Positions 8,170 through 28,361 of a stretch of DNA of 29,255 nt are shown here, in pieces. Numbering within the stretch: position 1 is the stretch's first letter; every line of letters begins with the position of its first letter. The DNA is taken from IMG/VR virus record IMGVR_UViG_3300048928_000617, positions 1 to 29,255 of that record; one strand, 5' to 3'. The DNA is from a virus. The notes beneath the pieces are model-generated. The model did no database searches. It was not told the DNA's origin and saw only the letters and a list, made by a program, of their open reading frames with translations. A program made the translations under genes and the position numbers.

Positions 8170-8528
8170 TGGTTCCTCTGATCCAATCGATTTTGCAGGC
8201 CAGTGGCCCTGTGCGCGCGCTGTTGGGCGACCCGATTCGCGTGTGGCCCGGCGTGGCGCCCAACGGCGTGGTGCTGCCCTACGCGACGTGGAGCGTCGTG
8301 GGCGGGTCACCAATAGCGCAGCTTTCCGATCCACCACCGGCGGACGGCTGGCGGGTGCGCCTGACCGTATGGGGCGATGGGGCGAGTCAGGCCAACGCCG
8401 CCGCAATTTCGATCCGCGACGAGGTGGAACGGCATGGCAGTATTGAGGCCTACAACCCGACGCCTCATGACGACGACACCGGTGCATTCGGCATCTGCTT
8501 CGACGCGCGAGTGCTTTCCATTCGTTGA
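8169..8528 (+). CDS. DUF3168 tail completion protein
   Basis: This 119-residue protein starts MVPLIQSILQASGPVRALLGD and has the family's LPYATWSVVGGSP segment and the WRVRLTVWGD strand followed by the ISIRDEVERHG helix. These are hallmarks of DUF3168 proteins, which act as tail terminators/completion proteins (gp17-type) at the head-proximal end of the tail. The start shares a base with the previous stop; an in-frame start at 8121 would lie inside the upstream gene. It is the last gene before the opposite-strand insert. Confidence 0.88.
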   Translation: MVPLIQSILQASGPVRALLGDPIRVWPGVAPNGVVLPYATWSVVGGSPIAQLSDPPPADGWRVRLTVWGDGASQANAAAISIRDEVERHGSIEAYNPTPHDDDTGAFGICFDARVLSIR

Positions 8529-8536
8529 GCGTTACG

Positions 8537-9154
8537 TTATCGACGTTTTTTCTTTGGTCGGTTATCTGATTGCTTTTTCGATTGCTCTTTCGTCAGCTTC
8601 TTCTTCGCCTCCCCCAGCTTTGCGGGCTTTACGGCGTTCGCAACACTCAAAGAGCTGGCGGCGCTTTCTTTCTCCGCATTCCGCTCGGTATCTAAGCCGT
8701 TTTGCGCATTTTCGCCCTGCTTAGACTGAATTAACGCGTTAATGGTGCGGGATGCTGCTTCTCCCCACAGAAGGTTGCCTAGCATAAAGCCGGTTGCCAT
8801 TGCGGGTGATGTGCTCTTGAACATGATCGGGCTAAAGAGTCCTAAACGGAGATAGGTGAACCCAACGACGACCCCTATAAAAATAACGATGCAGTCGAGG
8901 AATTTCCGTCTTTTATTGGCTTCGCTCCAAAGGTCTCCTAAAGACCGCGCATAGAGGAAGTTCACGAACACGCTCGCGACAGCGGCTGTCAAGAACGCCA
9001 AGGAGTACCCAAATGCAAAGTCTGTAAATGGCTGTTTGTGCAGCCATGGCTGATCGCTGGTGACCATTACAAAGATCCCCACCGCCGCGAGGCCGATGGC
9101 CCCCCAGCCGACTCCATGGAAAACTGATTTCATTGCGATGTTTTTGATTTTCAT
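8537..9154 (-). CDS. Multi-pass membrane protein, moron-like insert
   Basis: This 205-residue protein is encoded opposite to all neighbouring late genes and its DNA is visibly richer in A+T than them. Four hydrophobic segments are visible at about 14-32, 44-68, 84-107 and 115-131, followed by a hydrophilic C-tail from about 140 that becomes strongly Lys-rich (KKKLTKEQSKKQSDNRPKKKRR). No signal for a known enzyme is present and I do not recognise a family. Position, strand and composition are those of a moron expressed from the prophage, where membrane proteins often alter superinfection or host surface. The stop lies eight bases from the DUF3168 stop. A GGA ten bases upstream is a weak ribosome binding site. 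Confidence 0.75.
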   Translation of the reverse strand: MKIKNIAMKSVFHGVGWGAIGLAAVGIFVMVTSDQPWLHKQPFTDFAFGYSLAFLTAAVASVFVNFLYARSLGDLWSEANKRRKFLDCIVIFIGVVVGFTYLRLGLFSPIMFKSTSPAMATGFMLGNLLWGEAASRTINALIQSKQGENAQNGLDTERNAEKESAASSLSVANAVKPAKLGEAKKKLTKEQSKKQSDNRPKKKRR

Positions 9155-9173
9155 CTATTGCAATTCCATTTCC

Positions 9174-9201
9174 TTGTGACGTGTTAACGGCACGGTACGA
9201 T
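9174..9201 (+). promoter_or_regulatory. Possible promoter for the tail operon restart
   Basis: TTGTGA (9174-9179) and TACGAT (9196-9201) are separated by 16 bases and lie about 65 bases before the tail tube start, in the only gap after the opposite-strand insert. Each hexamer matches the sigma-70 consensus at about four positions. A second pairing starting at TTGCAA nearby is equally arguable. Weak support from sequence alone. Confidence 0.3.
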
Positions 9202-9265
9202 GGAACTTTAAATGACCGCAACCCGCACCCTGCGCCCCTCCGGGGGCATGAATGGAGATTCTCTA

Positions 9266-9745
9266 ATGGGCCACGTAATTAAATCCAAGCACACCCAGTT
9301 GTTCATCGCGATCGGCGCGGACGAGGTCATCAAGGTGACCCGTCTGCGCTCGGTCGGCTTCCCCGACGGCCAAGCCTCGGAGATCGATATCTCCGACTTC
9401 GACGACGACTGGGACCAGTTCGTTGCCGGCCGTAAGGCCACGGGGAGCACGACCATCGAAGTCATCTATGACTCGACGGCCCATGAAGCCATTGAGACCC
9501 TGCACGCTACCGGCGCCGTCGTCGACTTCTTGGTCACCGCGCCGAAGTCTGAGACTGCCGGTGCCGATAAGCCGGTCGCTTTGGAAGGCGTGATCAAGCC
9601 GCCGGACGATATTGTTTCCAAGCAGTTCAAGGGCTTCATCCAGAACTTCGCGGCACAGGTTGCCGACAACGATGTCTGGAAGGCCACCATCACCATTCGC
9701 GGCACTGGCCCGGTGAAGACCAACCGGCCCGCCGGCGGAAACTGA
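9266..9745 (+). CDS. Major tail tube protein
   Basis: This 159-residue protein (MGHVIKSKHTQLFIAIGADE) has the features of siphoviral tail tube proteins: an early strand recording a property (VIKVTRLRSVGFPDGQASEIDISDFDDD), the DDWDQFVAGRKATGSTTIEVIYD segment, and a final WKATITIRGTGPVK strand. It polymerises into the hollow tail tube around the tape measure. GGAG at 9253-9256 lies nine bases before ATG 9266 and decides this start over 9212. It directly precedes the chaperone genes, as in lambda (V then G, T), and is followed by a strong terminator. Confidence 0.9.
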   Translation: MGHVIKSKHTQLFIAIGADEVIKVTRLRSVGFPDGQASEIDISDFDDDWDQFVAGRKATGSTTIEVIYDSTAHEAIETLHATGAVVDFLVTAPKSETAGADKPVALEGVIKPPDDIVSKQFKGFIQNFAAQVADNDVWKATITIRGTGPVKTNRPAGGN

Positions 9746-9872: not shown

Positions 9873-10250
9873 ATGAGCAAGACCAACGACACCCCGGCGA
9901 CCGATACGCGCGCCACCGAACAGACCGTGCTGCAGTCCTTCACCAGCCTGGGCATGTTTGCCTCCAAGGACGTGCATGCAGACACCATCACGCTGCCCAG
10001 CGGCGACAAGGCGCAGTTCCATGTGCGCGAGCTGCCGGATGCTGAGTTCCGCAAGCTCTTCCAGGACGGCGATCGCGCCAAGCTGATCGCGGCGACCATC
10101 TGCGACGAGAACGGCAAGTCGGTGATGACGGCCGCCCAGGCGGCGCAGCTCAAGCCGCTGGTAGCCGCCGAGCTGCAGCAGGTGGCCATGAAACATTCGG
10201 GTTTCGGCGAGAAGGCTGCTGACGCCCAGGCCGAGGCGGGAAACGCCTAA
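9873..10250 (+). CDS. Tail assembly chaperone, short form (lambda gpG-like)
   Basis: This 125-residue protein (MSKTNDTPATDTRATEQTVL) is the unshifted product. Features are a Thr-rich N-terminus, the TITLPSGDKAQFHVRELPDAEFRKLF core and an Ala/Glu-rich C-terminus ending EAGNA. By position (between tail tube and tape measure) and by the slippery heptamer just before its stop, it is the gpG equivalent, which coats the tape measure during tail assembly and is absent from virions. A gap of 127 bases with a terminator precedes it. A short CAGGAAACGGCCC gives the AGGA ribosome binding site. Confidence 0.88.
   Translation: MSKTNDTPATDTRATEQTVLQSFTSLGMFASKDVHADTITLPSGDKAQFHVRELPDAEFRKLFQDGDRAKLIAATICDENGKSVMTAAQAAQLKPLVAAELQQVAMKHSGFGEKAADAQAEAGNA
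10238..10244 (+). promoter_or_regulatory. Programmed -1 ribosomal frameshift site GGGAAAC
   Basis: The heptamer reads G GGA AAC in the gpG-like frame, a perfect X XXY YYZ slippery sequence, differing only in the last base from lambda's GGGAAAG. The zero-frame stop TAA follows at 10248-10250. After slipping to GGG AAA, translation continues CGC CTA AGG into the downstream frame, which is open through to 10543. Confidence 0.9.
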
Positions 10251-10543
10251 GGCAGCGGGGCGAGGACTGGTTTTGGCATGTGCTGGCTGGCCATCTGCAC
10301 CGCACGGTCGCCGAGCTACGCGGAACCATGTCGCGCAAGGAGTTCCTGCGGTGGTGGGAGTTCCACAAGCGAAACCCCATCGATCCGGTGGGGCTGCACA
10401 TCAGGCCGGCCGCATTCGCTGCCTTTACCTCCGCCGCTCACAGCCAGGGAGGCACGAAGCGCGGCATGCAGGACTTCATTGACGTGCTGGTGCCACGATC
10501 GGACGACGACGAGGCCCAGGACTGGTTCGATTCACTGGGATGA
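10244..10543 (+). CDS. Tail assembly chaperone, frameshift extension (lambda gpT-like; part of a GT fusion)
   Basis: This frame lies at -1 relative to the gpG-like gene and is open across its stop. Shifting at GGGAAAC adds 99 residues (RLRQRGEDWFWHVLAGHL...) to 124 residues of the short form, giving a fusion of about 223 residues. The WFWHVLAGHLHRTVAELRGTMS stretch and EFLRWWEFHKRNPID match the lambda T/DUF4035-like minor tail domain, where GT binds tail tube subunits and G coats the tape measure. Part of the domain lies before the first in-frame ATG (10319 region) and GTG (10280), so independent initiation would lose conserved residues. This supports expression only by frameshifting. Confidence 0.87.
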   Translation, partial: RLRQRGEDWFWHVLAGHLHRTVAELRGTMSRKEFLRWWEFHKRNPIDPVGLHIRPAAFAAFTSAAHSQGGTKRGMQDFIDVLVPRSDDDEAQDWFDSLG

Positions 10544-10546
10544 CCA

Positions 10547-12514
10547 ATGGCTGACAACTTCGGGCGCTTCGCGGCGGTTCCCATCGGCCCGCTGCTGGCT
10601 GCGCGAGACGGCGGCCTCACGCTCGCCACTACTGCGGCGGCCAACATCAACCGCATGGCCAAGTCGGACGTGGCGCAGAGCACGGGCACGGTGGGGGTCG
10701 AGGTCGCCGTATGGGGCGACGACCCGATGGCGGCCGTGATCGGCGTCGTTACCGCGGAGGCGCCGCTCAATTCCTACCCCGGGGCCACGGCCGCGGGGGT
10801 CGGTTGGGAGCTGGGAACGGGGCGGGTGATGTTGAGCGGCGCGGCTGTGGCCAGCGGCCTACCGATCGCCAAGCACGGTGATATCGCTGGTCTGCGGGTG
10901 GTATTCGGCACGCCGACCCGCCTGCAGCTCTACCTGGGCGCCACGCAGGTGCATCAGCGCGACATCACTCTGGCGGGCCCGTTGCACTTTGCAGGCGCCC
11001 TCGCGGCAAGCAAGGCCGGTGGTCTGTGCATGGTGGTGAACGCCGGACAGTGGAACGCGCGAGGCCCGGCTGCACTCGCCGGCTGGAAGGTGGCCGCGGC
11101 CTCCGGACCCGTCACCCGCCTGTCCGACGCCGACTGGCTGACCGCACCGGGCGACCTGCCCGCCAACGCTCGGTACGAGGGGCTGATCGCCGAAGGGGTG
11201 AACCTGATCAGCGAGATCAACTTCTGGCCGTGGGGTGGCAATCCGGTCACCCAGACCAGTGCCGCCGAATGCGTTGTGCTTGATGCGGATGGCCTGCTCG
11301 ACGGCTTGGCCCTGTCCGGTGCCTCGGGCATGCCTGTCCAGATCCGGTCGGGTAGCTCTGCCGGCATGCTGGCCGACACGGCGGCAGTGTTCCGATTCAC
11401 GGTGGATCGCATCGAGATCAACGACGACGGCAGCAAAACGGTTCACTTCCGCGATGCCCACGACGATCTGGACGAGACGATCAACCGCGGCGTGTTCATG
11501 CCGAACATCGCCGCTTTGGCGTGGAAGCCGCAACCGGTCGTGATCGGTGCGGTGGCCAGCGTGCCGGCGATGGGTGCCAACTCGGATGCGACGGCGATGT
11601 TCGTGGCCGACGGCCTGGTCTACGCCGATGCGGTGATGGACCGCGGTGACCTCATGGAGCCGGGCACCTTCTCTCTGTCGCCCGACGGGCAGCAGCTGAT
11701 CATGAAGTCGCCTCCGGTCACGCCGGTGGTGGCCGACCTTTCCAGCGTTGGGCCCGGCCAGCGGCCGGCCACCCTCCAGCAGGCGATCGCCGACATCATG
11801 GGCCGCCTGGGCAAAACCTCATGGTCGGCCGGCGACTGCGCCGCGGTGGATGCTGCAACCGGCTACGCGGGCGTCGGCTACTACGCCGGCAACGCGATCA
11901 CCGGCCGGGAAGCAATGAACGCCATCCTGCCGAGCTATGGCGCCGCCTGCTACCAGGACGCCACCGGCGTGCTGCGCTTCACCCGGGTGGTCGCCCCCGA
12001 GACGTTCTCCGGCGCCCCGGCGTTCGAGCTCACGGCCAACGACCTGGCCGAGGATCTTCTCGCGGTGCCTGACGACGCACCGAACCTGACGCGCCGCATG
12101 GCCTACCGGCCGAACGCTCAGGCGTTGGCCGCCTCGGATCTGGTCACTGATGTGGTGGACGTGCCGCAGGCGCGCCGCGACGAGCTGACCGGCCTGTTCC
12201 GCGCGCAGGTTTACGGCGGCGGGGTGCTGCACCAGCACTATCGCCGGGCGGACGCCGCAGATCCGGTGCTATCGCTGTTCTGGGATGCGGCCGACGCGCA
12301 GTCGGAGATCGACCGGGTGGTGGGCATGTACCGGCAGCAGCGGTTCTTCTACCAGGTGACGGTGCGCGGCGATCAGAGTTTGGCGCCGCAGCCCGGCCAA
12401 GTCGGCCGCCTGACGTACCCGCGGTACGGCCTGGAAGAGGGCAAGGCGGTGCTGGTACGGCGCGTTGAGCGCAACCCGGCCAGCGGCGACGTGGTCCTGA
12501 CGATCTGGGGCTAG
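10547..12514 (+). CDS. Large tail protein, probably baseplate hub-like
   Basis: This 655-residue protein starts MADNFGRFAAVPIGPLLAAR three bases after the chaperone stop. The C-terminal 80 residues, with the DAQSEIDRVVGMYRQQRFFY helix and the GQVGRLTYPRYGLEEGKAVLV strand ending DVVLTIWG, resemble the ends of siphoviral hub proteins. The first about 190 residues (LGTGRVMLSGAAVASGLP...LRVVFGTPTRLQLYLG) resemble a SPRY-like or lectin-like beta domain. Placement before the tape measure gene is unlike lambda, where hub gene J comes last. Function as hub or distal tail protein is an inference from the C-terminal motif and position. Confidence 0.72.
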   Translation: MADNFGRFAAVPIGPLLAARDGGLTLATTAAANINRMAKSDVAQSTGTVGVEVAVWGDDPMAAVIGVVTAEAPLNSYPGATAAGVGWELGTGRVMLSGAAVASGLPIAKHGDIAGLRVVFGTPTRLQLYLGATQVHQRDITLAGPLHFAGALAASKAGGLCMVVNAGQWNARGPAALAGWKVAAASGPVTRLSDADWLTAPGDLPANARYEGLIAEGVNLISEINFWPWGGNPVTQTSAAECVVLDADGLLDGLALSGASGMPVQIRSGSSAGMLADTAAVFRFTVDRIEINDDGSKTVHFRDAHDDLDETINRGVFMPNIAALAWKPQPVVIGAVASVPAMGANSDATAMFVADGLVYADAVMDRGDLMEPGTFSLSPDGQQLIMKSPPVTPVVADLSSVGPGQRPATLQQAIADIMGRLGKTSWSAGDCAAVDAATGYAGVGYYAGNAITGREAMNAILPSYGAACYQDATGVLRFTRVVAPETFSGAPAFELTANDLAEDLLAVPDDAPNLTRRMAYRPNAQALAASDLVTDVVDVPQARRDELTGLFRAQVYGGGVLHQHYRRADAADPVLSLFWDAADAQSEIDRVVGMYRQQRFFYQVTVRGDQSLAPQPGQVGRLTYPRYGLEEGKAVLVRRVERNPASGDVVLTIWG

Positions 12515-12897
12515 TGGGTGTACTCGGCAATGTGGGCTTGGAGCTGGAATATGTAGTAGGAAACGTCTGACGACGACTCGTACAGTCCCGATACCCACTG
12601 AGCCGGCGGGGCATTGACCCTCAGACTGAAGTGGGCCGAAGCCGACCTTATAGCTGGATCGAAGAACGACGACTCCAAAATCGTGACGGCTCGCTTGCGG
12701 CCATCAACGGTGGGCATTTTGCTCCGTTCCTTGAGATAGGCCTTCAACGCAGTGAGGCGCTCCCGATGTTCTTCGATCTCGTAGGCCCGGCTGTTCTTTA
12801 GCCGGTCGCCGGCGCTCATCAATTCCTCAAATTCCCCATGAATCCGTCGCAGCTCGGCAAGGATGGCCCTTGCCTCTTGGAGATAAACCGTGTCCAT
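12511..12897 (-). CDS. Small helical protein on the opposite strand, function unknown
   Basis: This 128-residue protein (MDTVYLQEARAILAELRRIH) has an N-terminal region to about residue 60 that looks like a helical hairpin or coiled coil, followed by a mixed C-terminal part (SSSDVSYYIFQLQAHIAEYTH). It runs against the tail operon: its stop overlaps the hub-like gene stop by four bases, and its start overlaps the divergent small gene by eight bases. AGGA nine bases before its ATG is a good ribosome binding site. I do not recognise a family. Composition is less G+C-rich than the flanking tail genes, suggesting an inserted accessory (moron) gene. Confidence 0.68.
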   Translation of the reverse strand: MDTVYLQEARAILAELRRIHGEFEELMSAGDRLKNSRAYEIEEHRERLTALKAYLKERSKMPTVDGRKRAVTILESSFFDPAIRSASAHFSLRVNAPPAQWVSGLYESSSDVSYYIFQLQAHIAEYTH

Positions 12898-13135
12898 TCA
12901 ATTCGATCCTGAAAAGTGCGACGTCCGTGTAGTGGTATGCGTGCGCGGCGGAGAACCCGGTGACCTCAACAAGAGCTTGGTCGCGGGCGCCATGCACACG
13001 CTGAATTCTATTTCCGCGTTGGATCAGGGCGCTATGAGACGAAGTCTGATTGCGTGCCTCGCTCGCCAAGTGCGATCACTCAAACGCAATGAGGACGAGG
13101 TTCGCGCCGCGAAAAGGGGACCGGCCGCGTGTTGA
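12890..13135 (+). CDS. Small phage protein divergent to the opposite-strand gene, unknown
   Basis: This 81-residue protein starts at GTG 12890, supported by GGAG at 12879-12882 with a seven-base spacer. It reads MSIQFDPEKCDVRVVVCVRGG, then a helical, basic C-terminus (RSLIACLARQVRSLKRNEDEVRAAKRG). The first strands (CDVRVVVCVRG) suggest a small alpha/beta fold. The start overlaps the divergent gene by eight bases and the stop overlaps the next tail gene by seven, so it is likely co-translated with that gene. No family recognised. Confidence 0.65.
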   Translation: MSIQFDPEKCDVRVVVCVRGGEPGDLNKSLVAGAMHTLNSISALDQGAMRRSLIACLARQVRSLKRNEDEVRAAKRGPAAC

Positions 13136-14218: not shown

Positions 14219-16534
14219 ATGGCCCTCTACACCCTGACCGTTGACCTGTTGGCGGAAACCGGCAGCTTCGAACGTGACCTGGGCAAAGCATCGCGGATAT
14301 CCGAACGGTCCGCGCGAGCAATGCGTCAGATGCAGCGCGAGATGTCCGACAGCTTCGCTCAGGCTGCGCGCGACGCGAAGCTGTCGATTACAAGCATCGA
14401 CCTCAGCATGGCGACCCTGGCGAAAGGGTTCGGCGCACTCGGCGGCGGCGCGGTGCTGGGCATGTTCATCACCGAGACGATCAACGCACAGAATGAGCTG
14501 GCTCAGCTCAATGCCGCGCTGAAATCCACCGGTCAGGCTGCTGGCTACAACAGTCGGCAGCTCGTGGACATGGCCAACAAGATGGAGAAGGCGACCACGC
14601 ACTCGTCGGGCGAGATCGTGGCAGCGCAAACCCGGTTGCTCTCCTACTCCAGCATCGTGGGTGAGAATTTCCCGCGCGCCCTGCAGCTGGCGATCGATCA
14701 GTCCGTGCGCCTCAGTGAGAACATCACTGCATCGGCAGAGACGATCGGGAAGGCGCTGGAATATCCCACTGAGGGAATCTCCGCCCTGACGAAGCAAGGC
14801 TTCCGCTTCACCGACCAACAGAAGGCCATGTTGAAGGCCATGGTGGACACCGGGCGCTTGGCCGAGGCCCAGGCCATGGTGATGGGGGTGATGGAAGAGT
14901 CGTATGCCGGTGCCGGTCTGGCTGCCCGTGAAACACTCGGTGGAGCGCTCGGTGCCGTCAAGAAGTCGTTTGAGGATCTGCTGGGGAGCGGTGCGGAAGG
15001 CGGTACTGTTCGAGCTGCTACCGCAGCAATAAACGGCTTTGCCGATAACTTGGGCGTCATCGCCGCCGCGGCTCTGCCAGTCGGGGTGGCGCTGGGCATC
15101 TTCTACGCAGGCGGAAAGCTGGCGGTCGGCCTGAAGGAGCTCACCACGCTCTGGGCGGCGCACAGCATTGTGGCCAACCGAGCGGCGGTGGGGCTCACCG
15201 GTATGACCGCAGCCACCGTGCGACTGACCACTGCGCAGACCGCCGCCGCCGTGGCGGCAAAAGGTCTGTCCGCTGCTTACGCAGCGATCGGTGGGCCGGC
15301 AGGGCTCGCCGCGGCCGGCGTGGCGGCTATCGGCTTCGGTATCTACAAAGCGGCCGAGGCAGCGGGGGAAAGCAAAGAGCGCTTCGAAGGCTTTAAAGCA
15401 TCACTGGACGCAATCGCTGAAGCATCCCGCGAGCTGCGCAAGGACCTTCTGGAAGGCTCATCGATACGGGAGGCCATGGAAGGCTTCGGCAAGATGGTTG
15501 TGCCCCTGCGCGATGCACAAGCGGAATTGGAGGCGCTCCAGCAGAAGCTGCAAGGCCTGTATCGCGATCAAAGCAGCGCCACGCGTGGTGACGGCGCAGG
15601 CGCGCTTGCTTATGCAGGTCAGATTGAAGCGACCAGCAAAGCCATCGAGACACTTCGCGGGAAGCTCAAACCCGCAGAGAGTGACCTCGCGGCTATGGAG
15701 AGCGTCCTCCGGCAGCGGATGGGGCCTGCATTCGGTGAGTTGAAGGGTGCGATCGAGCGCCTCCGGCAAGATGGAAACTGGGAAGCGTTCTACAAGAGCA
15801 TCGGTCCAGGCGCGACCGCGGCGATCGGGGACCTTGACCGCCTCGAACAGCGCTTTAAGACCCTTTCGGCGACGATCAGCAACGGTATCGTCAATCTTCC
15901 GGGGCAGATTGAGCGCATCGGAAAGAGCGCAAAAGAGGTCGCACGCCTTGATGTTCGGGACATGCTCCAGGCGGGCATGGACCAAGGAAAGTTGAAGCCA
16001 GGCACCGCGGATTGGGATGCAGCAGTCGCGCAAGGCACGACGTACATCCGCCTGCGCATTCAGCAAGAGAAGGCCGAAACAGCCTTCACCGCGTCCAAAA
16101 AGCAGGCGACCGCCGCCGACCGCGCCGCTGCCAAGGACCAGAAGGCCGCGACTGAGTCACTGGAGCGCTACCGCCAGCAGGCTCAGCTGGCCGCAGCGGC
16201 GATGAACGGCCCGCTCGACGAGGCGATGGCCAAGCACCTGCAGAACATGGCCGAGTACAACGCCGCCCTGGCCAAGGGCAACATCGCGCAGGCTGATGCC
16301 AACGTGCTCATGGCCCAAAGCGCAATGGAATACGCCAAGGTGGCGGCAGAGGTTGATCGGGCGATGGCCAGCCCGGAGGCCCTGCTGGCGACCATGGACG
16401 GCGAGCTGGCCATGCTGGGCAAGGTCGGCCGTGCGCGGGAGCTCTACCGCCGGCAGCTGCTCAACGAGCGCGACATGCGCCAGGAGCTGCAGAAGGCGGT
16501 GGAGGCCGCCGGTGGCAAGGAATCGCTGGCGTAG
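14219..16534 (+). CDS. Tape measure protein, N-terminal part up to an in-frame TAG
   Basis: This 771-residue open part begins MALYTLTVDLLAETGSFERD, the usual opening of lambda-like tape measure proteins, followed by long helices, a hydrophobic segment at about 280-300 (LGVIAAAALPVGVALGIFYAG) and another Ala/Gly-rich hydrophobic region at about 340-385. It ends GGKESLA at TAG 16532-16534 (codon 772). The same frame continues open directly after the TAG for another 708 codons with clear tape measure sequence, so this is an interrupted gene, not a natural end. The full gene would encode about 1480 residues. The protein sets tail length and enters the host envelope with the DNA. Confidence 0.88.
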   Translation: MALYTLTVDLLAETGSFERDLGKASRISERSARAMRQMQREMSDSFAQAARDAKLSITSIDLSMATLAKGFGALGGGAVLGMFITETINAQNELAQLNAALKSTGQAAGYNSRQLVDMANKMEKATTHSSGEIVAAQTRLLSYSSIVGENFPRALQLAIDQSVRLSENITASAETIGKALEYPTEGISALTKQGFRFTDQQKAMLKAMVDTGRLAEAQAMVMGVMEESYAGAGLAARETLGGALGAVKKSFEDLLGSGAEGGTVRAATAAINGFADNLGVIAAAALPVGVALGIFYAGGKLAVGLKELTTLWAAHSIVANRAAVGLTGMTAATVRLTTAQTAAAVAAKGLSAAYAAIGGPAGLAAAGVAAIGFGIYKAAEAAGESKERFEGFKASLDAIAEASRELRKDLLEGSSIREAMEGFGKMVVPLRDAQAELEALQQKLQGLYRDQSSATRGDGAGALAYAGQIEATSKAIETLRGKLKPAESDLAAMESVLRQRMGPAFGELKGAIERLRQDGNWEAFYKSIGPGATAAIGDLDRLEQRFKTLSATISNGIVNLPGQIERIGKSAKEVARLDVRDMLQAGMDQGKLKPGTADWDAAVAQGTTYIRLRIQQEKAETAFTASKKQATAADRAAAKDQKAATESLERYRQQAQLAAAAMNGPLDEAMAKHLQNMAEYNAALAKGNIAQADANVLMAQSAMEYAKVAAEVDRAMASPEALLATMDGELAMLGKVGRARELYRRQLLNERDMRQELQKAVEAAGGKESLA

Positions 16535-16573
16535 GCCAAGGGCGCGGCGAGCTATGAAGAATACGAGCGGTCG

Positions 16574-18661
16574 ATGCTGGCCGCGGCTGGTGCTTCCGCT
16601 GCGCTGTCGCTGCAGGTGGAAGAGGCTGCGGCCAACGTCGAGGCTTGGGCCAACGTGGTGATCTACGGTGTCGGCGATGCCGCGGACGCCATGGCGGACT
16701 TCGTTGCCAGCGGGATGCGCGACTGGCGCAGCCTGTGGGGCGACATGAAGGACGTAGCCAAGCAGGGCCTGCGCGACCTTGCTCGCCAGCTGCTGCAGCA
16801 GAAGCTGGTGCTGCCGATCCAGACGAGCATCCTTGACCGGGTCGGCTATAGCATTTTGTCGGGCAATGGGACCGCCGCCGGTGGCCAGAATCTGGCCAGC
16901 GTGGCCGCGCTGGTGTCCAAGGGACGGGCCGCTGCAGGCTTCCAGACCCGAATCGCCACAGGCGCCCGCACGGACCCGGCGTCGATGATGGGGTTCGGCA
17001 ACAACATGCCAGCCTTCGCCGGCCCTGGCGGCAAGGCGTCCTCGCTGTCGGGCATCAACTGGGGCGGCGCGCTTGCCGGCGGCATGATGGGGATGCAGGG
17101 CGGCGACGGCCTGTTCACCAAGGGCCTTTCCACGCTGGCCGGCGGCTTTGCGGGGAATGCCGTAAGCGGAGCCATCTCCGCCGGCATGGCCGCTTACAAG
17201 GGCGGCTCAGGGCTGATGGGCGCGCTGACCGGCGGACTCAAGAGTATCGGGCCGGCCGGCTGGATCGGCTTGGGTGCCTTCGCCCTGGACAAGGTCACCG
17301 GGGGCGGCCTGTTCGGCACCAGCTGGAAGACGACGGGCGGCGCCAGCCAGTTCAGCATCGGCGATGGCGGCGTGTCGGGCGTCAACGAGACCAGCCAGTC
17401 GAAGAAGCGCAGCCTGTTCCGTGGCTCCAAGAGCCGCACCAACAGCACGTCCATGGATGACGCTGCACTGCAGTCGGTGCGCGATCTGTTCGATCAGATC
17501 GAGAAGGCCATGGGCCAGGGCGCCGCGGCGCTTGGCATCAAGGTTCCGCCGATGATCGCCGGCAGCTTCCGCCAGGAGTTCGACAAGAGCGGGAACCTGA
17601 CCAAGCAGTTTGGCCAGATCGCCGGTCGCGTCTACTACGAGGCGGAAGAGGCCTTCGCCCAGCGCTTGGCGGGCGAGAACATGTTGGCGGTGGCCAAGGC
17701 CTACGGCGCGGCGGACGAGATTGAGCGCATTGCCCAAAAGTACCGGGCCGACGCATCGAAGCTCAACGAGGTGGCCGGCCTCACGCTGGCCATCCAGGCC
17801 GATATTGCCAACGCCACGCAGCTGTGGAACAGCAGTGGCAACGGGACGATCACCAAGGTGGTGGAGCGCATGGGCGACCTGGCGCGAGCCGGCGAGACCA
17901 TGAACGAGGCGTATGCCCGGCTCACCGGTGCAGCTCGGGACTATGGCGCACTGATGGCCGACGTTTCGACCCAGCTGCTCACGGGCAACCTGACGCAGTA
18001 CCAGTCGCAGGCGCTCACGATCGAGCGCACGTACCGCCAGCAGGTGAAGGCGGCCAATGACTACGCGAAGGCGCTCGGCTTGTCCGGCGCCCGGGCGGAA
18101 GACCTGGCCAAGATCGAGGCGCTGCGGGCGACCAACATGGGCAAGCTCCAGGCTCAGATCGACGCTGACAAGAAGGCGATGAAGTACGGACTATCGATCA
18201 GCGACCTGTCGCCGCTGACCGATCAGGAGAAGCTGCAGGAGACGATGCGCGAGCTGGAGCGCGCCGTGTCCGGCGGCGACAGCAGTGCGGCGCAGGCGGC
18301 GGCACAGGCGGCCCTGGGCTTCGGTCGGAACCTCTACGCCAGTGGCCAGGACTACAACAGCCTCTACGGGCAGGTCACCGGTCTGATCGACAGCATTAAG
18401 GTTGGCAACCTCGACCTCGAGGACGGCACCAGCATGGGCAAGCTGGCTGACGTGATCGAGGCGCTGCCGGACAACTTCAGCCGCGCGGTGTTCGACCTGG
18501 TGGTCGATGGGAAGGGGCAGGCCGAGACGACCGCGGCCGTGCAGCAGGGCAACACCCTGCTGGCCGAACAGAACCAGGTGCTCCGCGAACTGCTGCGCGT
18601 GACCACATCGGGCGTACGCACGAGCAACAGCTCCGCTATCCGCGAAACCCTCAACAGGTAA
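16574..18661 (+). pseudogene. Tape measure protein, C-terminal part beyond the nonsense codon
   Basis: The frame is identical to that of the N-terminal part; coding sequence resumes at 16535 (AKGAASYEEYERSMLAAAG) and the first ATG is at 16574. The 695 residues include the amphipathic DAADAMADFVASGMRDWRSL region typical of lambda tape measure C-termini, Gly-rich stretches and helical repeats, ending IRETLNR. No convincing ribosome binding site precedes 16574, so independent synthesis is doubtful. Either the gene is inactivated by a point change (for example GAG or CAG to TAG), the codon is suppressed, or the base is a sequencing error. Codon use is the same on both sides, implying a recent event. 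Confidence 0.82.
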
Positions 18662-18665
18662 CCCC

Positions 18666-21600
18666 ATGCAAGAACGGAAAATCACCCTGATTGATATCGG
18701 GGCGGGCGCGTTGCCGTCTGTCACCCCGGTGACGGCCCAGAACTCGTCCTGGTTCCCAACGGTGTACGTCTCCCCCGAGACGCCGCCGGTGGACGGCGTG
18801 ACGCCTGAGCCGGTGGCCGATGGCGTTCTGATCGAGTGGGACGCCGTCGACCAGGCCGGGGTCGTCTACATCATCGAGCGTGGGCCCAGCCAGAACGGCC
18901 CGTGGACGGAGATCCATCGCACTACCGAAACCCGTTACCTCTACAGCGATGGCAGCGGGCAGAAGTGGTATTTCCGCATCACCGCTTCGGTGCGCGGCAA
19001 GCCGGGGCAGGGCACGGTGGTTGAGGCCACGCCGGCGCCTACGACGGCCCAGCTGGTTACCGCCCAGCAGAAGCTGGACAAAGAGATCGTGGACCGCGCG
19101 CTGGCTGACGCCAACGAGGCGGCCGCCCGTGCTCGCGATATCGGCTCGGTCAACGCCAGCCTGGTGCTGGAGGCGCAGACCCGCGTCACCCAGATCGGCC
19201 AGGCCATGGACGCGATCGCGGCCGAGGGGCAGACCCGCGCCACCGACCTGCTGAACGAGAAGCTGGAGCGCGAGGCCGCCATCACCGCGGTCAGCGAGAC
19301 GCAGCAGAACGGCTTCGACTCCCTGTCACGCGCGCTGTCGGAGGTCGCCGCCGGCAGTGGAACGCAGTTCGACAGCAAGCGGATCTGGGACTTCAATCTG
19401 ACCACGGAGAGCTGGACCGGCAACGGCGCGCCCGCGCTGGTGGACGGTTGGCTGCGGCCGGCCAACGCCGCGGCCAATCCCTACGTGCAGTCGCCCGGCG
19501 GCTTGGGTATCGACGGCAGCGGCTACCGCTTCGTGAAGATGCGGATCAAGAAGGTGGGCAACCCGACTTGGGCGGGCGCCCTGCAGTGGACCACCACGGC
19601 GGACGCCACTTGGAACACGACCAAGCGGGTGACGATGGCAGAGCCGGCATGGGACAGCGCCGGCGTGGCCACCTTGGACGTGTCCGACATTGCGTGGCGC
19701 CCCAGCACCATCTCGGCCGTTCGACTGCAGTTGGGCGCCGCGCAGGGCGTGTCCGACTACTACCTGATCGACTGGCTGGCCATTGGCCGGCCGATGCCGG
19801 CCGCCAGCGTGGCACTAGTGCAGGAAGAGACGCAGGCCCGCGTGACCGCGCTCGCGTCTGAAGCCACCCAGCGGACCACCCTGGCCGTGCAGATGCGCGG
19901 CAACTACACGGGCACCGACCTCAGCCAAGCGCAGGGGTTGATGGGCGATGAGCGCACCGCCCGCGCGGCGGCCGACAGCTCGCAGGTGCAGCGCATCACG
20001 ACCATGGAAGCCCGCATGCCCGCCGGCATCGGCGGTCTCGCCACCAGCGCATCGGTGACCACGCTGCAGGACGCAATGGTCGCGGCGGATCAAGCCAATG
20101 CCCAAGCGACGACAGCGGTGAACAGCAAGCTCAATGGGTTGCGGACCACAGGCGACAACCTAGTTCCCAACAGCAATTTTGTGTCCGGGATGGACTGGTG
20201 GACTCGCGCAGCCGGTCCTGCTGGCAACAGTATTGAGTGGGGTGCCACAAGTGGCGATGGCGGCCCTGGTGTAGTCCTTTCGCGCGGTGCCAGTACCTCC
20301 AATTCTCCATATGTCGCGGCAAACGAAAACACGTGGCAGCCGATAAAGGCACCACGCCGATTTCAGGCAATTCTGAGAGCTCGTGCTATCGGCGCAGGCG
20401 GGAATGTGCTCGCCCGGCTCAGTGTCCGCGATGCTGCAGGGGCAGAGGGTACTTCGGACATCAATGTCACGGTCACGAGCGCCAGCTGGTCCCGGTACAC
20501 CGTGGACTGGTCGGAAACGCTGGCCTCGCGGGTTGACGCCAAGTTCCTGTTCTTTGTCACCACGGCCGGGGCGTCGGTCGCGTTTGATCGAATTGAGGTA
20601 TACGACTTAACCGATCAGGCGGCGAATGAACTGACGGCTTCCGGCCTTCAGTCCATCACTACGCGGACCGGCGTCATCGAGGGCACGCTGGTCGCACAGG
20701 GAAGTGCGCTGACGCAGGTTCAGGCGGACGTGGCCGGCAAGGCCAGCAACGCGGCGCTGACCTCGCTGGACAGCAAGGTCACCCAGCTTGGCAACACGGT
20801 CACCAGCCAAGGCACAGCGCTTACGAGCGTCAATGCCAAGCTGTCCGCGCTGGGCGAAGTGAAGAGCTATCAGATTACGGCGAACGCTACGATCTCCGGC
20901 CAGCCCACCAACGGCCCTCGCGCCACCGGCATTCGCAACCCTACGGGCGCGCTCGTCGCGCCCGCGGGCCGGGGCTTCGGTGTGGTGCTGATCAATGCCG
21001 ACAGCACGTTGGGATCGCGAAACGGCTTTGATACTTGGGCAGACGCCAACGGCAACGCGCAAGCGATGGCCGATTTCATCGCCACGATTCCCGAGAATCA
21101 GTATTTCATCGTCTACACCAGCGACAGCATCGGCACGCTATTGCCCGGAGGCGTCGGCGCCGCGGCACTGCGCGCGGCCTTGGTGGACGCGGGCGGGACC
21201 ACGGCTGCAGTCGGCTCCCTGACCAGCTCGCGTATGTACATCCTCATCGGCCGGCGAAAGTTTGGAGCTGGCGCTGGCACGGAGGTTTTGAGTCCCGCGT
21301 CAACGAGCGCCCGTGTTGACCTGTGGTGTGAGTACACCCTGCAGGTACTGAATGGCGTGCCGATCGGGGCGGACGACAAGCGGGCGATGTCGCAGTCGCT
21401 GGATGCCACCGTTGCGGCCACCAGCACGCTGACCGGGAAGGTGACTGCGCTGGAGGGCACCACCACCGCTCAGGGCCAAGCGATCACCACGGTGAACGCA
21501 CAGCTCGCGGCCACTCAGCAGGCCGGGCCAAACATCATGATCGACGGGGGCTTTGAGGCCTATGCCGCCGACGTGCTGATCTATCAGGCCGGCACCGGCA

Positions 21601-23615
21601 CGCTGCGAGCGATCGCTGGTGTCGCTGGCGCCCGTGCGTACGTTGGTGCTCGAGCTGCGCGGCTGCTGCGTACCGGTGTGCCCAGCAATACGAACACGGA
21701 CACCTACTTTGGTCCTGAGATCCTGACAAACGAAGGGCGCGTGTACTTCGTGGAGGCATGGCTCAAGAACGATCCGGATGCTGTCGCGCCGGGTGGCGCA
21801 ACCTACTCGATCGGCGTGACCGGAATCAATTCGGCAGGCGTGCGGGCATGGTATTCCGCGCCAACAACCAGCGCGCAGCGAATGGATGCCTTGGCGAATT
21901 GGACGAAGATCTCGGGCTACGTCACGATCAGCAACCCCACCGTGAAAGCCCAACTCTGGGCAACCATCCAAGGCCGCAACGGGCAGACACCGCAGAATGT
22001 CGCGCTGCTGATCGACAACGTGATGTGGCAGGACGTGACCGATGCGTATGGCGCCAAGACGACGGCCGATGCGGCCGCGACCGGGTTGACCGCGCTGACG
22101 ACTACCGTCACCCAGCAGGGGGGCCAGATCACTGCGCTCGGGCAGCAGGTCAACCAGGTGGGTGCCAGCGTGGGAGAGAAGGCCGACGCAAGCACGGTGC
22201 AGACGCTCACAGCTCGCGTGGCTTCGTCGACTCAGGGAGGCGGCAACCTGGTTGCAAACGCGTCGTTCAAGGATGGTGCTCGCGGGTGGGTATGGGAATG
22301 GAACGACCAAGGGTTCTGGATTGACCCCGTGGTGAATCTGGAGAATCCCCGATACTGGCCCGTCGGCACTAACGCCATTGGTATCCGCGCGGTCAACTTC
22401 GAGAACCCGCCCGCTGGGCAGACGCGGTACGGATATGTGCGAAATCAGGTTGCGCTGGCGGCCGAGCCCGGTAAACGCTATGGCGGCTCGGCTTGGCTCA
22501 ACCCGTTCCGGTGCATCGCACATGTGGTGCTGTATTTCTATGACGAGAATAACCAGCTGATCCGCAACGATCACAGCGCACCACTTCCTCCGCAGAATGC
22601 TCAGTTCCCAACTCTGGCAACGTTGCCGCGTATCTTTGTGTCAGGCGTAGCTCCACCCAATGCGCGCAAGGTCTGTGTCGGCTTTCTTGCTGCCGCAACT
22701 GGGCCACAGCACACGAATCCTTATCTCTGGGCTGTTCAGCCGATGCTTGAACAGATGCAAGATGGCCAGGCAGGCCCGTCGCCATGGAGTGTTGGTGGTA
22801 GCGAGACGTTCGCAGGATACGACTTGTTCGTGAACGCCAACGGCCAGGTGGGCGGGATGCAGGTCAAGAACAATGGCAACGTCGTGTCGTTCGATGTCTT
22901 GGCTCATGTCTTCCGCGTGCTCTCTCCAAATGGCGCGGCGGACGGGATGGAAGTCCGCGACGGCTATATCCGTACATGGAAGGGAAACAGTCAACGGATC
23001 ATTGGCAACGGCTTCGGCGTTGGCGGTGAAGGGTTGATGGACTACTTCGGTCCTAACGTCGGCGCTGCCGCGGCAAGCAAGGCGAACGCCACCGTCTGGA
23101 TGGACGTAAACGGCAACGCCTACTGGGGTGGATCGCTGGCGGCGGGTGTGTTGCGTAACGCGGTGCAGAGCACGCAGACCAGCACCGTTGGCACCGAAGT
23201 GGTCAACGGGCCGTTCGGCACCAACGGTCGCAACAAGAGCGTGGTGGTTAGCTTCAGCCGGCGCGTGAATCGGCAAAAGAACCAGTACGGCACGCCGGGC
23301 TTCGTTGCGGGCGTTGGCACCAACACCTGCACGGTCAACGTGTACCGCAAGATCGATAACGACCCGGAGACGTTCTGGACGTCCTTTACCGCCGGCGGCG
23401 GCATAGACATCTACAACGAGACGGACGGGCCGGATATCGCCACGTCGTACTGGGCCGGCTCGGTGACGCTCAACGATGGCGGCGATGGGAGCCGGCCCAG
23501 GCAGTACCGGGCGCAGATCGTTTCCTACAGTGAGCAAGGCGTCTCGCACCAGTCCGGTAGCTACGACTTCCAGAGCACCAATCAAAGCCTGTCGATCGTA
23601 TCGACTGAGGTTTAA
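18666..23615 (+). CDS. Long tail fibre / host-recognition protein (1649 residues)
   Basis: The N-terminus (MQERKITLIDIGAGALPSVT) is followed by a fibronectin III-like domain (about 45-120), coiled coil (about 125-235), and beta-sandwich modules that look carbohydrate-binding: one at about 236-375, and three starting with a similar N-[LI]-x-x-[ND]-x-x-F signature at residues 498, 956 and 1194. They are linked by heptad-like repeats (KVTQLGNTVTSQGTAL, TVTQQGGQITALGQQV). Residues about 733-880 resemble an ILEI/FAM3 (GG) domain. The C-terminal about 170 residues form the tip. It lies four bases after the tape measure frame. It replaces lambda's L-K-I-J block in position. It probably forms a trimer that binds surface glycans. 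Confidence 0.85.
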   Translation: MQERKITLIDIGAGALPSVTPVTAQNSSWFPTVYVSPETPPVDGVTPEPVADGVLIEWDAVDQAGVVYIIERGPSQNGPWTEIHRTTETRYLYSDGSGQKWYFRITASVRGKPGQGTVVEATPAPTTAQLVTAQQKLDKEIVDRALADANEAAARARDIGSVNASLVLEAQTRVTQIGQAMDAIAAEGQTRATDLLNEKLEREAAITAVSETQQNGFDSLSRALSEVAAGSGTQFDSKRIWDFNLTTESWTGNGAPALVDGWLRPANAAANPYVQSPGGLGIDGSGYRFVKMRIKKVGNPTWAGALQWTTTADATWNTTKRVTMAEPAWDSAGVATLDVSDIAWRPSTISAVRLQLGAAQGVSDYYLIDWLAIGRPMPAASVALVQEETQARVTALASEATQRTTLAVQMRGNYTGTDLSQAQGLMGDERTARAAADSSQVQRITTMEARMPAGIGGLATSASVTTLQDAMVAADQANAQATTAVNSKLNGLRTTGDNLVPNSNFVSGMDWWTRAAGPAGNSIEWGATSGDGGPGVVLSRGASTSNSPYVAANENTWQPIKAPRRFQAILRARAIGAGGNVLARLSVRDAAGAEGTSDINVTVTSASWSRYTVDWSETLASRVDAKFLFFVTTAGASVAFDRIEVYDLTDQAANELTASGLQSITTRTGVIEGTLVAQGSALTQVQADVAGKASNAALTSLDSKVTQLGNTVTSQGTALTSVNAKLSALGEVKSYQITANATISGQPTNGPRATGIRNPTGALVAPAGRGFGVVLINADSTLGSRNGFDTWADANGNAQAMADFIATIPENQYFIVYTSDSIGTLLPGGVGAAALRAALVDAGGTTAAVGSLTSSRMYILIGRRKFGAGAGTEVLSPASTSARVDLWCEYTLQVLNGVPIGADDKRAMSQSLDATVAATSTLTGKVTALEGTTTAQGQAITTVNAQLAATQQAGPNIMIDGGFEAYAADVLIYQAGTGTLRAIAGVAGARAYVGARAARLLRTGVPSNTNTDTYFGPEILTNEGRVYFVEAWLKNDPDAVAPGGATYSIGVTGINSAGVRAWYSAPTTSAQRMDALANWTKISGYVTISNPTVKAQLWATIQGRNGQTPQNVALLIDNVMWQDVTDAYGAKTTADAAATGLTALTTTVTQQGGQITALGQQVNQVGASVGEKADASTVQTLTARVASSTQGGGNLVANASFKDGARGWVWEWNDQGFWIDPVVNLENPRYWPVGTNAIGIRAVNFENPPAGQTRYGYVRNQVALAAEPGKRYGGSAWLNPFRCIAHVVLYFYDENNQLIRNDHSAPLPPQNAQFPTLATLPRIFVSGVAPPNARKVCVGFLAAATGPQHTNPYLWAVQPMLEQMQDGQAGPSPWSVGGSETFAGYDLFVNANGQVGGMQVKNNGNVVSFDVLAHVFRVLSPNGAADGMEVRDGYIRTWKGNSQRIIGNGFGVGGEGLMDYFGPNVGAAAASKANATVWMDVNGNAYWGGSLAAGVLRNAVQSTQTSTVGTEVVNGPFGTNGRNKSVVVSFSRRVNRQKNQYGTPGFVAGVGTNTCTVNVYRKIDNDPETFWTSFTAGGGIDIYNETDGPDIATSYWAGSVTLNDGGDGSRPRQYRAQIVSYSEQGVSHQSGSYDFQSTNQSLSIVSTEV

Positions 23616-24387: not shown

Positions 24388-25320
24388 ATGTGCTACTCCG
24401 CTCAGATCAAGGCCGATTACCACAAGCTCGTGCGCGAGTTCGGCGCGGTCGTGTCCATGGACGAGTTCGCGGCGCTGTATGCCCACGACCCGGGCAAGAA
24501 GCGGCCGAAGACCCCGAAGGCCATGGATGATGCGTTCGCCGCGGGCAAGACCCCTGCCGAGCGCTCGGTCTGGGCGGCGATTCAGGACTGGAACGGCAGG
24601 GATGCAACAGCCTTCGAGCAGGAGCTGTTCACCCAGAAGACCCGCCTGGTCAACGCCGAGCGCGCGCTGCAGACGAAGGTCACGAAGAAGGCCGAGAACG
24701 ACGTCCGGGTGGCCACCAACAAGATCGCCCGGGCCCAGGGCAAGCTGGCCGACCTCCGGCGCACGGACCACGTGGCAAGGGACTCGCGCATCTTCCCGGG
24801 CGTGTATGGCACCGTCATCGTGTCCGAGGGTGGCAGCCGAGTGGTGAAGCCGATGCGCTACCAGTGCCGGCTCGCCGGGAAGCCGGCCAGCTACGACCAG
24901 CGCTACCCCGGCACCTACAACGCCAGGCGCGACAGCCTGGAGGGTTTCTGGCGGCCGGCCTTCGGGTACACCCACGCGCTCATGGTGGTGGACACGTTCT
25001 ATGAGAACGTCGAGGGGCCGGACGGCGGCAACCAGATAGTGCAGTTCACCCCCCGCACCGGCGATCCGATGCTGGTGGCCTGCCTGTGGTCGCACTGGGT
25101 GGATCCGGCCGGCAAGGAGCCTGATCTACTGTCCTTCGCGGCGATCACCGATGACCCGGAGCCCGAGGTCGCTGCAGCGGGTCACGACCGGACGATCATC
25201 AACATCAAGCCCGAGCACGTGGACGCCTGGCTCAACCCCGACCCGGCAGACTTGGGCGCGCTCTACTCGATCTTCGACGACAAGCGGCACCCGTTCTACG
25301 AGCACCGCCTGGCGGCGTAG
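24388..25320 (+). CDS. SRAP (YedK/HMCES) family abasic-site-binding protein
   Basis: This 310-residue protein starts MCYSAQIK, so removal of Met exposes Cys2, the residue that in this family forms a covalent thiazolidine crosslink with abasic sites in single-stranded DNA. The other catalytic residues appear present: N178 in YNARRDS, E206 in FYEN and H266 in GHDRTIINI, matching N75, E105 and H160 of E. coli YedK. It is larger than YedK (about 220 residues) owing to a charged helical insert at about 50-150. It may protect phage DNA damaged during the lytic cycle or excision. It lies among accessory genes; expression from the divergent gap is likely. Confidence 0.9.
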   Translation: MCYSAQIKADYHKLVREFGAVVSMDEFAALYAHDPGKKRPKTPKAMDDAFAAGKTPAERSVWAAIQDWNGRDATAFEQELFTQKTRLVNAERALQTKVTKKAENDVRVATNKIARAQGKLADLRRTDHVARDSRIFPGVYGTVIVSEGGSRVVKPMRYQCRLAGKPASYDQRYPGTYNARRDSLEGFWRPAFGYTHALMVVDTFYENVEGPDGGNQIVQFTPRTGDPMLVACLWSHWVDPAGKEPDLLSFAAITDDPEPEVAAAGHDRTIINIKPEHVDAWLNPDPADLGALYSIFDDKRHPFYEHRLAA

Positions 25321-25516
25321 GGCTGTTCCGACTCTTTCTCGCGCACTTGGCCTATGGTCCCAGGGTGCGGCGCGGTCGATGATTGGCATGTCGGATCCGG
25401 GAGCCGCAGGCAGCTCAGCCCGGGTGCCGGGGCGCCTGAGCAGCGCCCCGCCGACCCTTCGCGGGCCGGTTACGGCCAGTCGCGGAATCTGAGATCCCGG
25501 CCCGTATCCTGCGCGC
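25321..25516. other. Intergenic stretch with a G+C-rich hairpin
   Basis: No gene is supported in this 196-base gap. A perfect 7-bp stem GGGGCGC/GCGCCCC (25429-25435, 25443-25449) with loop CTGAGCA is visible but no T run follows, so it is not a standard terminator. A promoter for the following gene was not clear. Confidence 0.4.
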
Positions 25517-25819
25517 ATGCTTCCTCCCGACTTCCGCTGGCGTTCGGTCGCCAGCCGCCCTGATGAACTTCCGGATGCGCTCTACTGCGGCGCCACGGAG
25601 GTATTGCGCCTTCAGAAGCGCGTGGACAATCACGTCTGGTGGGTTGAGGTGGACCGTCATCTTGACGACCAGTACCGGGGGCGCCGGGACTGCACCAGCT
25701 ACGAGCAGGGCGTGATCGGGTCTGAGCTGTGGGCGGTCAGGCATCAGCAGCGGCTTCGCCTGGAGATTGACCAGCGCGAAGTGGCCCGCGCTGCCACGAG
25801 GAAGAACCGGACCTGGTAG
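25517..25819 (+). CDS. Small phage accessory protein, unknown
   Basis: This 100-residue protein (MLPPDFRWRSVASRPDELPD) is rich in Arg, Trp and acidic residues: LYCGATEVLRLQKRVDNHVWWVEVDRH forms strands, and the C-terminal RLRLEIDQREVARAATRKNRTW is helical and basic. No recognised domain. No good ribosome binding site is seen in front of ATG 25517, so the start is uncertain. It sits among right-end accessory genes after SRAP. A longer minus-strand frame over the same place (25415-25882) is a compositional shadow. Confidence 0.6.
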   Translation: MLPPDFRWRSVASRPDELPDALYCGATEVLRLQKRVDNHVWWVEVDRHLDDQYRGRRDCTSYEQGVIGSELWAVRHQQRLRLEIDQREVARAATRKNRTW

Positions 25820-25880
25820 GCAGTCAGCCGGCGTTGCCTCCGTATCGGCGCGTGCGACCCCCGGCGGCGACAGTGGCTCC

Positions 25881-26093
25881 ATGGATCAAAAGAGCATCGG
25901 CAAGGCGCGCTGGGCGCGCGCGAGGGCGGCTTTGCTATGGCAGCAGGCCGACGATCTGGACAGCATTCGCAGCGGTGACTGGCGGGCGAGGGCGACGCGT
26001 CGTCGTGGCGCTAACCGCCTCCGCGCCGAGGCCGCCCGGTTCGACGGTATCGCCAACCGGCTGCAGCCCTTGGAAGACGATGAGGCCGCTTAA
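25881..26093 (+). CDS. Small basic helical protein, unknown
   Basis: This 70-residue protein (MDQKSIGKARWARARAALLW) is Arg/Ala-rich and predicted fully helical, ending acidic (LQPLEDDEAA). The frame is open upstream to 25767, overlapping the preceding gene, but ATG 25881 gives the natural N-terminus. No clear Shine-Dalgarno is seen. No family recognised. It could be a small DNA-associated protein; evidence is weak. Confidence 0.5.
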   Translation: MDQKSIGKARWARARAALLWQQADDLDSIRSGDWRARATRRRGANRLRAEAARFDGIANRLQPLEDDEAA

Positions 26094-26145
26094 CGGCGAC
26101 AGTCTGTCTGCGGGGCCGCAGGTGGCCGATGCTGTTAGTTTTTTT

Positions 26146-26166
26146 GCTAATTGATTGTCGATTAGC
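26146..26166. repeat. Imperfect inverted repeat upstream of the membrane-protein gene
   Basis: GCTAATTGA (26146-26154) and TCGATTAGC (26158-26166) are inverted copies with eight of nine bases paired and a three-base centre, in an AT-rich patch right after a T run. It lies 20 bases before the predicted -35 box and could be an operator or a protein-binding site. Confidence 0.4.
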
Positions 26167-26185
26167 GTTCGCCCCGGCGCAATGT

Positions 26186-26215
26186 TTGCCAGGGCTGTTC
26201 AAAGTTGGTTAACAT
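26186..26215 (+). promoter_or_regulatory. Sigma-70-like promoter of the DUF4760-like gene
   Basis: TTGCCA (26186-26191) and TAACAT (26210-26215) with an 18-base spacer lie about 34 bases before the gene start, in a locally AT-rich gap. This would allow expression independent of the late operon, i.e. in the lysogen. Confidence 0.5.
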
Positions 26216-26248
26216 TTGTAAAAGGGGAGTGCCACAAGGAAGCTGGTG

Positions 26249-26911
26249 ATGAACGTTTTGGAAAAGGCCTCTCGGCAGGTAGGGACGCGCGGGTTTGCGA
26301 CCGTATTCGCCCTGACTGTGGCGGTCGGGTGTGCCCTCACTGTTTGGTTCATGACGCCCGAGGAGCGGAACTATGCCAGTGTCGCAGCGGTCATACAGAC
26401 GGGTGCCATTTGCATCGGCCTGTTGTCGCTGGTGCTGATAGCGAGGCAGACTAGGACCACTGCCACCCTTTCCAAAATCAATTCGTACCACCAGTTTTTT
26501 GGGGATCTCATCACAACTGAGACTCGGCAACGGCTGCGGGATTTGGCAGAGACGTGTAAATTCACGAAGGAGATGGAGGAGCAGCGCCCTCTGACTGTAG
26601 AGTCGGTGAACTTGCTCCAGAAGCCCGAAAACCGGCCGGTGATGTCCTCCTACTTAGATGAATTCGAGGAGTTTTGCGGGGCTGTTCACGCTGGCGCGGT
26701 GAGCGAAGAGTATGCTTATCGCCTAGAAGCCACACGTGTCATCCGGACTTGGGTAGTGTTTGAGCCATTCATCAAGGCAATTCGGATCAAGGCTGAAAAT
26801 GAGCGTTGCTACCGCGAGATCGCAAGACTTGCGTCAGACTGGCAAGCTCGGCGTGTGAAGGAGTCAAGCGACGAGCACAAATCAAACGGTATGGCAAAGC
26901 ACATCGATTGA
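26249..26911 (+). CDS. DUF4760-like membrane protein, probable lysogenic-conversion gene
   Basis: This 220-residue protein starts MNVLEKASRQVGTRGFATVF. Two hydrophobic spans are visible at about 16-36 and 45-66, followed by a cytoplasmic helical domain. SYLDEFEEFCGAVHAGAVSEEYAYRL and TRVIRTWVVFEPFIKAIR resemble the DUF4760 family. Function in that family is unknown. AAGGA eight bases before ATG 26249 is the ribosome binding site; a GTG three bases earlier is an alternative. Own promoter, AT-richer composition, position at the phage right end beside the attachment site and a terminator downstream are typical of cargo genes such as exclusion or defence functions. Confidence 0.75.
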   Translation: MNVLEKASRQVGTRGFATVFALTVAVGCALTVWFMTPEERNYASVAAVIQTGAICIGLLSLVLIARQTRTTATLSKINSYHQFFGDLITTETRQRLRDLAETCKFTKEMEEQRPLTVESVNLLQKPENRPVMSSYLDEFEEFCGAVHAGAVSEEYAYRLEATRVIRTWVVFEPFIKAIRIKAENERCYREIARLASDWQARRVKESSDEHKSNGMAKHID

Positions 26912-27242: not shown

Positions 27243-27289
27243 AGCTTCCCAAGCTACTGACGAGGGTTCGATTCCCTTCACCCGCTCCA
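27243..27289 (+). other. attR: 3' half of a tRNA-Gly(CCC) gene
   Basis: The sequence holds the anticodon loop TTCCCAA (anticodon CCC), the 3' anticodon strand, a T arm with loop TTCGATT closed by GAGGG/CCCTT, a 3' acceptor strand CACCCGC, T and an encoded CCA (27287-27289). No matching 5' half (expected to begin GCGGGTG) precedes it. Of the five anticodon-stem pairs, the three next to the loop (AGC/GCT) form, while the two outer ones (CG against AC) do not. That places the start of the tRNA-derived segment close to 27243. An intact tRNA should be rebuilt at the other phage end. Confidence 0.82.
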
Positions 27290-27413
27290 TATCCCCGCGT
27301 CTGGCAGGGCATGAGCTAACGGCGACGCCGGAAGTGCTTTCTTTTTTCGCTTCCAGGTGCTTAGGGCAAGTTCCAGCATTGCCTGTGCGTTCGTGGACGC
27401 GTTCAATAGCGGT

Positions 27414-28238: not shown

Positions 28239-28361
28239 TGTGCTCCCACATCGAGTGTTAGAGATGAAGATCCGATGTTCTGTCTGTGAATGAAAGGCGT
28301 AGTCGACACGTCCGATACCCCCAGCACGCTATGCTTCGCGCTTTCCAGCCCCTGCGCCGCG
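28239..28361. other. Gap upstream of rimK
   Basis: These 123 bases hold no gene I can support. The rimK frame is open back to 28290, but the family's N-terminus begins at 28362. No convincing promoter boxes or terminator hairpin were recognised. Confidence 0.4.

Follow-up and report, generated by a model that had tools for sequence, protein, structure and literature searches.

A private in-frame amber codon in the tape measure gene of a prophage in a Stenotrophomonas-like bacterium, probably a recent nonsense mutation

The stretch of DNA analysed here, referred to as the window, is the complete IMG/VR virus record IMGVR_UViG_3300048928_000617, 29255 bases in length. Its genes follow the order truncated RusA-like resolvase, HNH endonuclease, large terminase, portal, protease, major head protein, connectors, tail tube, tail chaperone, tape measure and a 1649-aa tail tip protein, and its terminase shares ~72% identity with the corresponding proteins of Pseudomonas phages, PMG1 and phi1 among them. 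Near the other end of the record lies the right attachment region (27243–27301, + strand), which in Stenotrophomonas nematodicola corresponds, at 93% identity, to the 3′ part of a tRNA-Gly(CCC) gene plus the sequence flanking it. After this junction comes a chromosomal rimK-like gene (28290–29255, + strand) that runs off the contig, with 88% identity and the same order as in the S. nematodicola genome. With a junction at tRNA-Gly and rimK next to it, the sequence identifies the contig as an integrated prophage whose left side is cut off and whose early genes are missing, and, since the right junction falls inside the 3′ part of tRNA-Gly(CCC), it places the integration site at tRNA-Gly, adjoining rimK. 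A literature search, judged by titles, returned no described phage that matches a Stenotrophomonas prophage at tRNA-Gly.

Several further features accompany the structural genes. The tail assembly chaperone gene (9873–10250, + strand) carries the heptamer GGGAAAC close to its end, and the −1 frame stays open up to position 10543 (10236–10543); the pair may be a candidate for programmed −1 frameshifting of the lambda G/GT kind. Just ahead of the tail tube gene, ~750 bp of lower G+C content (8526–9280) stand where relatives have ~100 bp; this stretch holds a reverse-strand ORF of 205 aa (8537–9154) with no Pfam match, and it looks like a moron. A second extra stretch of ~615 bp (12511–13128), whose left edge coincides with the stop of the gene upstream, is absent from relatives, the flanking matches being almost adjacent in genomes G002 and G004. 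It contains a reverse-strand ORF of 128 aa (12511–12897) and a small forward ORF (12890–13135), neither with a Pfam match. Internal direct or inverted repeats, as a sign of mobile elements, were found in neither of the two insertions. Between the tail tip gene (18666–23615, + strand), which is intact, and the right junction, the interval 24388–26911 carries an SRAP-family (SOS response associated peptidase) gene and a DUF4760 gene, both of which are possible lysogeny-expressed cargo.

The tape measure gene occupies a frame on the + strand from 14219 to 18661, consisting of 1480 codons and a terminal TAA, with a single internal stop, the TAG at 16532–16534, which is codon 772. The remaining two forward frames across the same interval contain 31 and 32 stops, so the open tape measure frame is no product of chance and is clearly coding. 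In the 5′ part, which runs through the in-frame TAG (14219–16534, + strand, 771 aa), residues 1–771 match several PHROG tape measure families (best E 2.6e-27) and share 95–96% amino acid identity with the related loci L061, L062 and L063. The 3′ part (16535–18661, + strand) has a Pfam match to Tape_meas_lam_C that is weak and below the curated cut-off (E 0.002). In relatives, both halves are continuous within single uninterrupted ORFs, as in L061, where 1479 residues align at 92.8% identity. The gene follows that of the tail chaperone and precedes that of the tail tip protein, and its neighbours have normal ends. By these sequence criteria the frame encodes, in both halves, a siphophage tape measure protein (TMP). 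The sequence-only reading had described one frame interrupted by this TAG, with tape measure sequence on both sides of it and neighbouring genes that end normally, and its coordinates and description hold throughout, with the PHROG matches speaking for the 5′ side and the single ORFs of relatives for the 3′ side.

The gene is also mosaic. Residues 1–771 are closest to L061, whereas L002/L071 are the nearest match to the sequence beyond the stop, with 98% identity over the 695 residues that follow the ATG at 16574; modules within the gene have thus been exchanged by recombination.

To place codon 772 among its relatives, the window protein, with an X at the stop, was aligned to all fetched loci, and duplicate loci of one contig were counted once. 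Forty-nine distinct related records aligned across the codon. None of the 49 has a stop there, and the aligned tape measure frame is open in every one; the codon specifies Leu in 32 records, Arg in 15 and Val in one, and the last (L033, Asn) is misaligned. The nearest records, L061/L003 and L004/L062, are ~93% identical over the whole protein, and all relatives of the tape measure gene in the genome collection are Stenotrophomonas. Since all aligned relatives carry a sense codon within an intact, single open frame, the outcome of an alignment that the earlier reading had proposed, the TAG is private to the window. That reading had also pointed out that the TAG in GCG TAG GCC is one base away from GAG or CAG. 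This is right as to the letters, but the relatives speak against a Glu or Gln ancestor: they have mostly Leu codons, and neither Glu nor Gln is present at this position. In addition, the exact 33-mer around codon 772, with the codon itself left free, has no copy in viral contigs, and a degenerate pattern with TAG at the site has no match in the viral collection, so that no independent copy of the allele was recovered. In the GenBank phage collection, a DNA search gave no match and a protein search gave distant matches only, such as Pseudomonas phage P7869 with 42% over the first third.

Most probably, a lambda/D3-type siphophage prophage of a Stenotrophomonas-like host acquired the TAG recently, as a private nonsense mutation in its single tape measure gene. 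Its age was approached through the part after the stop only; the N-terminal half was left out of the comparison with L071, because the gene is mosaic and the divergence there is deep. Relative to L071, the post-stop part has 64 synonymous and 12 nonsynonymous changes, with a dN/dS of 0.057. When the changes were polarised with other relatives, 7 nonsynonymous and 24 synonymous changes were assigned to the window line and 3 and 21 to the L071 line, a difference that is not significant (Fisher p 0.49). Neither dN/dS nor the polarised changes against L071 give any indication of relaxed selection beyond the stop, and no second stop or frameshift was found in the tape measure gene. Moreover, projection of relatives' ORFs onto the window showed every other comparable long structural gene to be intact, and the remaining flags in this comparison were read as non-coding shadow frames; the TAG at codon 772 is the only lesion found in those late genes for which a comparison was possible. 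As the post-stop part is still constrained and no other lesion accompanies it, the stop would be recent, in agreement with the earlier proposal of a recent inactivation; on the sequence evidence, either its age is small compared with the divergence from L071, or the consensus is wrong at this point.

The latter alternative, that a one-base sequencing or assembly error entered the consensus while the tape measure gene of the real prophage is intact, is considerably less probable, though not negligible. A solitary lesion, the unrelaxed downstream sequence and the failure to find a second copy of the TAG allele in the viral collection are all what such an error would produce, and ~3% of single-base changes in the tape measure gene would create a stop. 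However, the consensus gives no sign of poor quality, the other long genes being free of frameshifts, and one clean substitution is equally expected from a real mutation.

It could also be supposed that the TAG is read through or suppressed, which would yield tape measure proteins of two lengths, a short and a long one, or would tie the production of particles to a suppressor host. Sustained readthrough would be expected to maintain the same downstream constraint, and in-frame stop readthrough has been argued to be possibly common in prokaryotes (PMC7918605), but the constraint is explained equally well by a recent origin, and several observations make readthrough or suppression very unlikely. 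The stop is not conserved in relatives; the window contains no tRNA gene, and hence no suppressor, and no suppressor tRNA was found in five related loci either. The 100 nt downstream of the TAG are predicted to fold no better than shuffled sequences (z −0.74). The codon is the only in-frame TAG among the genes of the window, the early half of the phage lying outside the contig, and an intact 655-aa gene (10547–12514, + strand) ends with TAG exactly where its relatives have TGA; TAG is thus the terminator of at least one other structural gene here. On these grounds, neither a short and a long form generated by suppression or readthrough nor conditional production in an amber-suppressing cell, both of which had been raised by the sequence-only reading, found support.

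Two related candidates were rejected on parts of the same evidence: a recoded genetic code, on the single in-frame TAG, the lack of tRNA genes in the window and the TAG that terminates the 655-aa gene, and a programmed readthrough site, on the unconserved stop and the downstream fold. More speculative still, and regarded as highly improbable, is the idea of a host-gated phage, in which a host amber suppressor or inefficient RF1 termination would gate tape measure expression and particle release. As the contig covers neither the host genome nor the early half of the phage, a suppressor tRNA could be encoded beyond the window, with nothing pointing to one.

The last alternative holds that two genes meet at this site, the first ended by the TAG at 16532, the second begun by reinitiation coupled to that stop, and both halves acting together. 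The nearest in-frame ATG, at 16574, is 39 nt past the TAG and would leave a product of 695 aa, and reinitiation there could be conceived, but it is not supported, no strong Shine-Dalgarno match being present ahead of this ATG. Relatives that encode two separate proteins with a conserved stop and start, which the sequence-only reading had named as evidence against itself, were not encountered among the 49 aligned records, and a conserved two-gene boundary was rejected for this reason. Furthermore, from established knowledge of lambda gpH and the TMP of TP901-1, a ruler protein that spans the tail is unlikely to function in two pieces, and the arrangement is scarcely credible.

If the TAG is a genuine nonsense mutation, translation would end at residue 771, and with such a truncated TMP tails would be either not built or non-functional. 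The lambda tape measure gene H scores as essential and is needed for plaques (PMC10695390), and in TP901-1 the removal of parts of either end of the TMP damages or abolishes infectivity and can leave tailless particles (PMC5099701). Because lambda requires H and TP901-1 requires both ends of its TMP, defective tail assembly is to be expected, as had been predicted earlier from the sequence. After induction, to judge from other phages, the prophage would give no infectious particles. In the integrated state a mutation in a late gene would be hidden from selection, so that such alleles would arise and persist for a short time. The best reading, in our analysis, is an ordinary young loss-of-function allele that would block tail formation. 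Taken alone, a single prophage that is probably dead and has a young nonsense codon in one of its late genes is of little weight; it illustrates that a gene-complete prophage can be disabled by a single base, which matters when activity is scored from annotation alone.

With respect to known systems, the gene resembles lambda gpH and the PHROG tape measure families in its position, its length, its PHROG matches and the weak Tape_meas_lam_C match in its second half. Unlike homologous tape measure genes, which are single open frames, the window copy is interrupted by TAG at codon 772. With TAG-reassigned phages such as phAss-1 (PMC10607447) it shares the presence of TAG within the frame of a late gene; the window differs in having one such TAG only, no tRNA gene and a TAG that ends a gene at the homologous terminus. 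In prokaryotes at large, in-frame stops are mostly short-lived, show low dN/dS and reach their highest frequency in the mobilome category (Belinky et al. 2021, PMC7918605). The stop described here is likewise private, is surrounded by sequence of low dN/dS and lies in a prophage gene; readthrough is neither needed nor shown for it, and, differing from that pattern in nothing, it constitutes one further case.
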